NCBI GenBank assembly: GCA_015233045.1
Contig: JADFYL010000009.1
Span: 1-37,342, forward strand
Direction of reading: 5' to 3'
DNA from: Nitrospirota bacterium
GTDB taxonomy: Bacteria > Nitrospirota > Thermodesulfovibrionia > Thermodesulfovibrionales > Magnetobacteriaceae
DNA: 37,342 nt
Notes under the pieces: generated by a model
What the model saw: the letters and a program-made list of their open reading frames with translations, nothing else
What the model was told of the DNA's origin: nothing
Database searches by the model: none
Shown here: positions 36,050-37,342 of the stretch, one piece after another
Position numbering within the stretch: the first letter of the stretch is position 1
Layout: every line of letters starts with the position of its first letter
Position numbers and translations under genes: made by a program

Positions 36050-36571
36050 TTACCACGGTTGCCCGAATATTTCCTTAACATTAAATTGAAGCCCTTCTAT
36101 GACTTTAGACGTAACCATGCCCTCAAGCTCGGCAATACAGTGTTTCTTATACCTTTCATTTTCGATTGTTAACACCTCAACCGTTTGCAACTCAGGTATG
36201 ACAACCCAATACTCCGGCACCTTGTATTTCTCATAGACAGCCCTCTTCACTTGGGTATCTTTCTCGAAACTACCTGGAGATATAATCTCACAAACCATAT
36301 CCGGTACGCCTCTTATCCAATCCTGAAAAATTTCCATGTTTTCTTTCCTGATAAACAATATATCTGGTTGAAGCCTGTTCATCCCTTCCTCAAATATTAC
36401 GTCAAGGGGTGAAAATAACAACTTCCCCAAATGATTTTTCTTAATATGCTGACGCATAATATCAAACAAGTTGGCTGCTATGTCCTGATGCCTTCCAAAT
36501 GGACTGGGCCCCATGATTTCCTCTCCATTGATTATCTCAGTTAAGTCTAAATCCCTCACTAACGCTTCCAT
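36050..36571 (-). CDS. Uma2-family endonuclease (DUF820), copy 2
   Basis: The protein has 173 residues, a close paralogue of the 13612-14124 gene. LQPDILFIRKEN near residue 67, VPDMVCEIISPGSF near 89-102 and KYKVPEYWVVIPE near 117 form the PD-(D/E)xK signature, here with the usual Ser-Pro. It starts 7 nt after a TATACT box without a Shine-Dalgarno sequence. It stands alone between the repeat protein and a MITE. Divergence is mostly in the N-terminal recognition-side region (residues 26-60), consistent with different targets. Nuclease activity is inferred. Confidence 0.82.
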   Translation of the reverse strand: MEALVRDLDLTEIINGEEIMGPSPFGRHQDIAANLFDIMRQHIKKNHLGKLLFSPLDVIFEEGMNRLQPDILFIRKENMEIFQDWIRGVPDMVCEIISPGSFEKDTQVKRAVYEKYKVPEYWVVIPELQTVEVLTIENERYKKHCIAELEGMVTSKVIEGLQFNVKEIFGQPW

Positions 36572-36616: not shown

Positions 36617-36626
36617 GCTTAAATGA
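36617..36626. repeat. Left 10-bp target-site duplication of the MITE
   Basis: GCTTAAATGA is repeated exactly at 36853-36862. Together they bracket the element and show that the empty site was one copy of this decamer. Confidence 0.85.
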
Positions 36627-36852
36627 CAGGGCAAACGCATTTGAAAAATAAAGCTGAAGATACCTATGCAATCATTCCGGCTTTGTTCCTTTCCATCATT
36701 CCGGTGCTGTTGCTGTCATTCCGGCTTGTCCGGAATCTTCCCTATTAGTGGGAGTTTCATAATGATTGTACATATTCTGAGGCATAAGGACAGATTCCGG
36801 ACAAGCCGGAATGACAAAAATAAGGGAGGCAATTTCTAATGCGTTTGCCCTG
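36627..36852. mobile_element. 226-bp MITE with 15-bp TIRs and 10-bp target duplication
   Basis: Terminal inverted repeats CAGGGCAAACGCATT (36627-36641) and AATGCGTTTGCCCTG (36838-36852) are perfect. Immediately outside, GCTTAAATGA occurs on both sides (36617-36626 and 36853-36862), a 10-bp target-site duplication. Inside is a perfect 24-bp inverted repeat (36715-36738 and 36792-36815) built on TTCCGG-CTTGT-CCGGAA, plus two more TCATTCCGG copies near 36672 and 36697. It has no reading frame for a transposase, so it must be moved in trans. A 10-bp duplication suits IS4-group enzymes, but the source element is not in the window. It lies 15 nt beyond the 3' end of the histidine kinase gene. Confidence 0.88.
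36715..36815. repeat. 24-bp perfect inverted repeat inside the MITE
   Basis: Arms at 36715-36738 and 36792-36815, spacer 53 nt. Each arm is itself nearly palindromic around CCGG. Transcribed, it would form a long hairpin, or two smaller ones. Confidence 0.88.
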
Positions 36853-36877
36853 GCTTAAATGATAGCCCCGCGGCAAG

Positions 36878-37342
36878 CTATATTATGTTGTGGTATTTGC
36901 CGCCGATGTCTTTGAAAGTTATCGTAACTGTTGTTCCGTTAGCGGAGTTTATCCTCGTTGTGCCTTTTAATTTACTTTGTACAAGGTCTTTTACGACTTG
37001 AAGACCGTGGTATGCGCCCCCCTTGTCAGAGGTGCCTTCGGCGAAGCCCGTGCCGTTGTCACTGACGATTAGTACGAGTTCACCATTTTCAGTCTGGTTA
37101 AAGGTTACTGTGATTATACCCTGTATGTCTTTTGCAAAGGCATGTCGTATAGAGTTTGAGACTAATTCGTTCAGAATAAGGCCACATGTAATCATGATGT
37201 TGATGCCAAGCGAGTTCATGTTTGAGACTATTGCCAGAGAGGGTACGGGCCTAGCCCCATAGGCCGAAACGAGTTCACTGAACAGGACATTTATAAAATC
37301 TTCGATATTTACCGACGAGAAGTCAATGCTCTCGCAGAGCTT
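36878..37342 (-). CDS. Sensor histidine kinase, C-terminal part (HisKA_2/HWE type, partial)
   Basis: The frame is open from the window edge to TAG at 36878, 154 codons. DFINVLFSELVSAYG is the second part of the dimerisation region. Then come GLILNELVSNSIRHAF (N box), DNGTGF (G1 box) and YHGLQVVKDLVQSKLKG (G2 region). The spacing, and the helix before the N box, fit the HisKA_2/HWE group. The His phosphorylation site and sensor lie outside the window. An internal ATG at 37219 is not a likely start. It would phosphorylate an unlinked response regulator. Confidence 0.85.
   Translation of the reverse strand, partial: KLCESIDFSSVNIEDFINVLFSELVSAYGARPVPSLAIVSNMNSLGINIMITCGLILNELVSNSIRHAFAKDIQGIITVTFNQTENGELVLIVSDNGTGFAEGTSDKGGAYHGLQVVKDLVQSKLKGTTRINSANGTTVTITFKDIGGKYHNII

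Follow-up and report, generated by a model that had tools for sequence, protein, structure and literature searches.

The 226-bp unit that lies beside a histidine kinase gene in this relative of Magnetominusculus raises the question of what kind of element it is, which enzyme could have placed it there, and whether its internal palindrome acts on the neighbouring genes. The window is the whole stretch of DNA that was analysed, 37,342 nucleotides long; it is contig C79 of G000, the window's own genome (a 2.61-Mb draft of 190 contigs, 73.6% complete), and the genus was sampled with seven genomes (G000-G006).

Anatomy of the unit

The features of the locus are listed below, with TIR for the terminal inverted repeats and TSD for the target duplications.

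36050-36571, minus strand: gene for a Uma2-domain protein (PF05685), left neighbour, outside the element
36617-36626, no strand: left TSD, GCTTAAATGA, read directly, with an exact second copy at 36853-36862
36627-36852, plus strand: MITE, very probably ISAs1-type (family A), 226 bp, without coding capacity, multicopy and with a 10-bp TSD
36627-36641, plus strand: left TIR, CAGGGCAAACGCATT, inner sequence ...TTTGAAAAATAAAGC
36714-36738, plus strand: core inverted repeat, arm 1, REP-like palindrome GTCATTCCGGCTTGTCCGGAATC
36792-36816, minus strand: core inverted repeat, arm 2, pairing with 36714-36738
36838-36852, minus strand: right TIR, CAGGGCAAACGCATT, inner sequence ...TTAGAAATTGCC
36853-36862, no strand: right TSD, GCTTAAATGA, identical to 36617-36626
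36878-37342, minus strand: histidine kinase gene, C-terminal 154 aa (HATPase_c), right neighbour, outside the element and cut by the contig end

The element follows the kinase stop at a distance of 25 bp and precedes the Uma2 start by about 55 bp, and its description in an earlier note as a unit beside a histidine kinase gene, with perfect 15-bp TIRs and a 10-bp direct duplication on both flanks, is exact in each of these points; the TIRs reach 20 bp with one mismatch when extended. The perfect internal inverted repeat, for which the same note had given 24 bp, is present and was counted correctly to within one base, because the 30-nt arms (36714-36743 and 36787-36816, 93% complementary) hold 25 perfect pairs. 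The two ends are unequal, with TTAGAAA at one and TTTgAA at the other. Exact matches to the TIR occur only twice in the 37-kb window, at both ends of the unit, and the core palindrome is found in this element only, where shuffled sequences predict 0. By rough arithmetic, an inverted repeat of 15 bp abutting a direct repeat of 10 bp at a spacing of at most 1 kb is expected by chance about 1e-8 times per 37 kb. The element contains no ORF of at least 80 aa, so that the unit is short, non-coding and bounded by TIRs, as MITEs are. The Uma2 gene is one of a large paralogous set in the genus, with dozens of DNA matches of about 70-78% at many loci of G000-G006, and a second MITE (C77, L011) likewise precedes a Uma2-like paralogue, at about 45 bp.

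Copies, target duplications and empty sites

If the unit is a non-autonomous MITE, as the earlier note held, other copies should exist, and the BLASTN comparison with the host and its relatives that it had proposed reveals them in number. In the own genome the search returned 85 matches, about nine of full length; about 12 copies have both ends and are accompanied by many fragments, so that the element is multicopy at unrelated sites. The closest copy (G000:C103) is 99% identical to the window unit, with 2 differences and an exact TSD of its own (AACCTCCCCG), and nine more copies with both ends exist besides these two. A 14-bp core of the TIR, with one mismatch allowed at most, occurs 51 times in the own genome; its reversed sequence, the control, occurs 0 times. 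Every one of the seven genomes of the genus carries the TIR; outside it, among the genera sampled, only one other genus of the family has it, in four genomes. MITEs with CACTA-type ends also occur in the window genome (C62:3569-3797, TSD TCTGGTCTCT); in G014, a single-contig genome of another genus, only MITEs of 217-308 bp were found at the fetched loci. In addition, TIRs or cores lie about 10-200 bp from the starts of several contigs (G000:C87, C90 and C48; G006:C28, C40, C67, C75 and C83), and these assembly breaks are consistent with MITE repeats as their cause.

Our TSD scan covered every TIR pair in the fetched loci, and the duplications it identified are of fixed length: 19 related MITE copies in seven genomes, including the window copy and the G014 elements, have exact 10-bp TSDs, and two further copies have exact 9-bp TSDs. 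Empty sites were searched by joining the 160-bp flanks of twelve copies and comparing them with the genus, where the closest relative, G003, shows 92-95% identity across most of these joined flanks. For the C58 copy, the orthologous site in G003:C44 is cleanly empty, with a single CCCGATGCCT and flanks matching at 94%; for the C147 copy, G003:C5 offers a nearly clean empty site with one AGACGCATA(C/G), the last target base differing. Sites with a single target copy, which the earlier note had suggested looking for, therefore exist in the family, and the window site is not among the clean ones. The G003 site of the C78 copy lacks the element and has several differences at the target, that of the C150 copy holds a 25-bp addition, and the C6 and C177 insertions look older because their flank matches in G003 are parted by an element-sized gap. 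The orthologues of two MITE sites, L239 (G003:C80) and L227 (G001:C110), carry insertions of 25 bp or somewhat more without an element, which could be footprints of excision or small repeats of another kind.

At the locus of the window itself (L186, G003:C28), both the MITE and the Uma2 gene are absent from G003 and the kinase runs straight to the next gene, so that the locus has also seen a gain or loss of Uma2 and G003 provides no clean empty allele of the window site. The recent insertion claimed earlier is upheld in the sense of a relatively late one: identity to the nearest copy is 99% and G003 has no MITE at the locus, and the insertion is therefore probably young, even though the G003 site is not a clean empty one.

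The palindromic core and its supposed functions

It is important to consider that a mobile element may also serve its host, and the earlier note had supposed that this one acts as a terminator or mRNA stabiliser at gene 3' ends. A domesticated regulatory hairpin between the kinase and Uma2 genes would be compatible with a MITE, and we regard it as improbable. The unit does sit between two genes on the same strand and the predicted fold of its transcript is very stable (-96.4 kcal/mol, z = -10.8), but any long perfect inverted repeat folds this strongly. An intrinsic terminator is a GC-rich stem followed by a T-tract, and no tract of this type occurs within the element on either strand, which leaves the transcript without a U-tract; nor is there a promoter within it, the one 9/12 match lying outside and at chance level. 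In a raw hand count, the copies face gene starts (about 33) more than gene ends (15). No ORF of at least 100 aa overlaps 22 of the 25 examined copies, and the ORFs that overlap the other three are small (112-154 aa). Over 33 cores, 27 changes affect one arm only and 2 affect both, where 1.9 would be expected if the arms changed independently, so that selection on the hairpin is not visible in this small test. The Rfam search of the element returned no family, and its microRNA-like matches were rejected as sub-threshold resemblances to a long hairpin. There is no evidence for a functional effect at the histidine kinase locus, and the hairpin is best seen as an inherited core that recurs in several MITE families rather than as a part of demonstrated use to the host.

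The earlier comparison with REP/BIME elements leads to a second alternative, in which a RAYT (Y1) transposase would spread the palindrome pairs as the mobile unit and the outer repeats would be incidental. The family does have CCGG-rich palindromes in inverted pairs in intergenic positions, as REP/BIME elements do: allowing two mismatches, the genome contains 84 occurrences of GTCATTCCGGCTTGTCCGGAATC, against 0 in the control, most of them forming inverted pairs whose spacing is fixed at 51-54 or 77-78 bp, and Y1_Tnp genes are present in four of the seven genomes of the genus. However, many pairs among those examined are enclosed by longer elements that have CAGGG-type ends and 10-bp TSDs, these TSDs abut the outer TIRs and not the palindromes, and no Y1_Tnp, the mark of a RAYT, appears in three copy-rich genomes, G001, G003 and the own one (a draft, 73.6% complete). 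REPs are not known to make TSDs. Membership among the REP/BIME elements fails on a defining point, the TIRs and the fixed 10-bp target duplications of the family; this alternative is largely refuted and, in our judgement, less probable still than a regulatory hairpin, and the idea of a REP-like regulatory action finds no support.

The pairs spaced at 77-78 bp belong to family A, that of the window element, and to family B, whose ends read CA[CG]GG[CT]AAATTTGTTCT and whose 10-bp TSDs, given on the strand read, are CGTTAATTAT at L022 and TAATATCCTG at L023; the 51-bp pairs occur in MITEs of the CACTA type, as well as in several copies that are degraded. A palindromic core common to MITE families with different ends is a new detail here. 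At least one copy, G000:C8:15334-15470 (L012/L052), looks like a chimera from MITE recombination at the shared core, because it has a B-type left end, an A-type right end and no TSD. Substitutions in the core cluster on its second CpG (positions 16-17, counted from 0), mostly as C to T or G to A, and nearly spare the first CpG, an unevenness that may reflect subfamily descent.

The transposase and the place of the family

The ISAs1 genes near these ends were located through DDE_Tnp_1_assoc matches in relatives. An intact element in a related genus (L100:1501-2733, G018:C277) is 1233 bp long, has the TIR CAGGGCAAACGCACTAT on both ends and an exact 10-bp TSD (CAGCCAATAA), and encodes a transposase in a 372-aa ORF at L100:1602-2720 that covers the whole ISAs1 model NF033564 (E = 5.8e-121). 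Its CACTA-type ends are a sister TIR to those of the window element, identical in the 13-bp start, and the TSD length of 10 bp is the same in this IS and in the MITEs. Within the genus, two broken ISAs1 copies come closer and have the TIR type of the window element. L132 (G004:C75) retains the N-terminal part, and its gene is preceded by CATGGCAAACGCATTAGAAA; L167/L175 (G006:C63) retains the C-terminal part, 80% identical in the overlap, with CAGGGCAAACGCATTTCAACA right after the stop. Together their ends show the TTAG/TTT asymmetry of the window MITE, and over its first 20 nt the right end of the MITE differs at one position from the end that precedes the ISAs1 gene at L132:1433.

The transposase with the same ends that the earlier note had called for was thus found as ISAs1 elements in relatives and not in the draft of the own genome, 73.6% complete, which has no ISAs1 match and, among TIR pairs separated by at most 1.6 kb, no autonomous element with both TSD and transposase. 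The one intact transposase recovered has the sister TIR and belongs to another genus, and none was found intact with exact CAGGGCAAACGCATT ends. One candidate for an autonomous element, C93:7003-7899 (897 bp), was rejected since it has no TSD, and the own-genome PF01609 match was rejected as an IS4-group transposase, since it is a single fragment, lies on a contig of 3 kb and has no TIR nearby. Homologues in Pseudanabaena and Spirochaetales (40-54%) showed no TIR and TSD pair under the settings used. The family is assigned to ISAs1, and not to IS4, because ISAs1 elements in relatives have ends of the same or a sister type, the intact one also with a 10-bp TSD. The IS4-group MITE proposed in the earlier note is very unlikely: the 10-bp TSD and the DDE_Tnp_1 domain (PF01609) that the IS4 group has in common with ISAs1 would be compatible with it, but all transposases beside these ends match NF033564, with the ISAs1-typical DDE_Tnp_1_assoc where the N-terminus is present, and none matches an IS4 model.

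On the strength of these sequence comparisons, we consider the window unit to be a non-autonomous MITE moved in trans by an ISAs1-family transposase (probability about 0.9), and an ISAs1 enzyme was very probably the mover of the window copy. Directly seen are the ends, the 10-bp duplications, the many copies, a clean empty site at one locus, and, in relatives, ISAs1 elements whose ends are of the same or a sister type and whose duplication is likewise 10 bp long. The transposase would bind and cut at the CAGGGCAAACGCATT ends, the element would be joined to staggered target cuts 10 bp apart, and host repair would then yield the 10-bp duplication; the helper would be an ISAs1 element with CAGGGCAAACGCATTAG/CAGGGCAAACGCATTTG ends acting in trans. 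The window family resembles the ISAs1 insertion sequences (NF033564; PF13808 and PF01609) in its CAGGG terminal repeats, its 10-bp TSD and the transposase family at these ends; the window element itself lacks a transposase gene, and what it shares with them is confined to about 16-20 bp at each end. The MITE is not an obvious deletion derivative of the IS, because their interiors show no visible similarity.

The element has the ends of a known IS and is in this sense a type I MITE (type I/II terms: PMC3542288). It agrees with prokaryotic MITEs (PMC10969869) in its 226 bp, its TIRs and TSD, its multicopy and intergenic occurrence and its size variation by internal indels, whereas its host lineage, Magnetominusculus, and the core shared in its family set it apart from those described. 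TIMEs (PMC4133298) are likewise small non-autonomous elements that form mosaics and are reported to be Tn3-derived, which separates them from a family with ISAs1-type ends. Searches of open-licence papers for Magnetominusculus with insertion sequences and for magnetotactic Nitrospirae with MITEs found none, which is weak proof of absence. The element kind is well known; its example in a Magnetominusculus relative is new.

The MITE family accounts for many short repeats in Magnetominusculus genomes, several of them at contig ends, and its insertions are usable as markers between close strains. Descent from one ancestor could explain the common core; it is a tentative and rather doubtful suggestion that the MITEs of the genus are modular, one core being swapped between families with CAGGGCAAACGCATT and CA[CG]GG[CT]AAATTTGTTCT ends. 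A core repeatedly given new ends would thereby gain access to different ISAs1 transposases, and such exchange, if true, would show that bacterial MITEs can survive the loss of one helper transposase.
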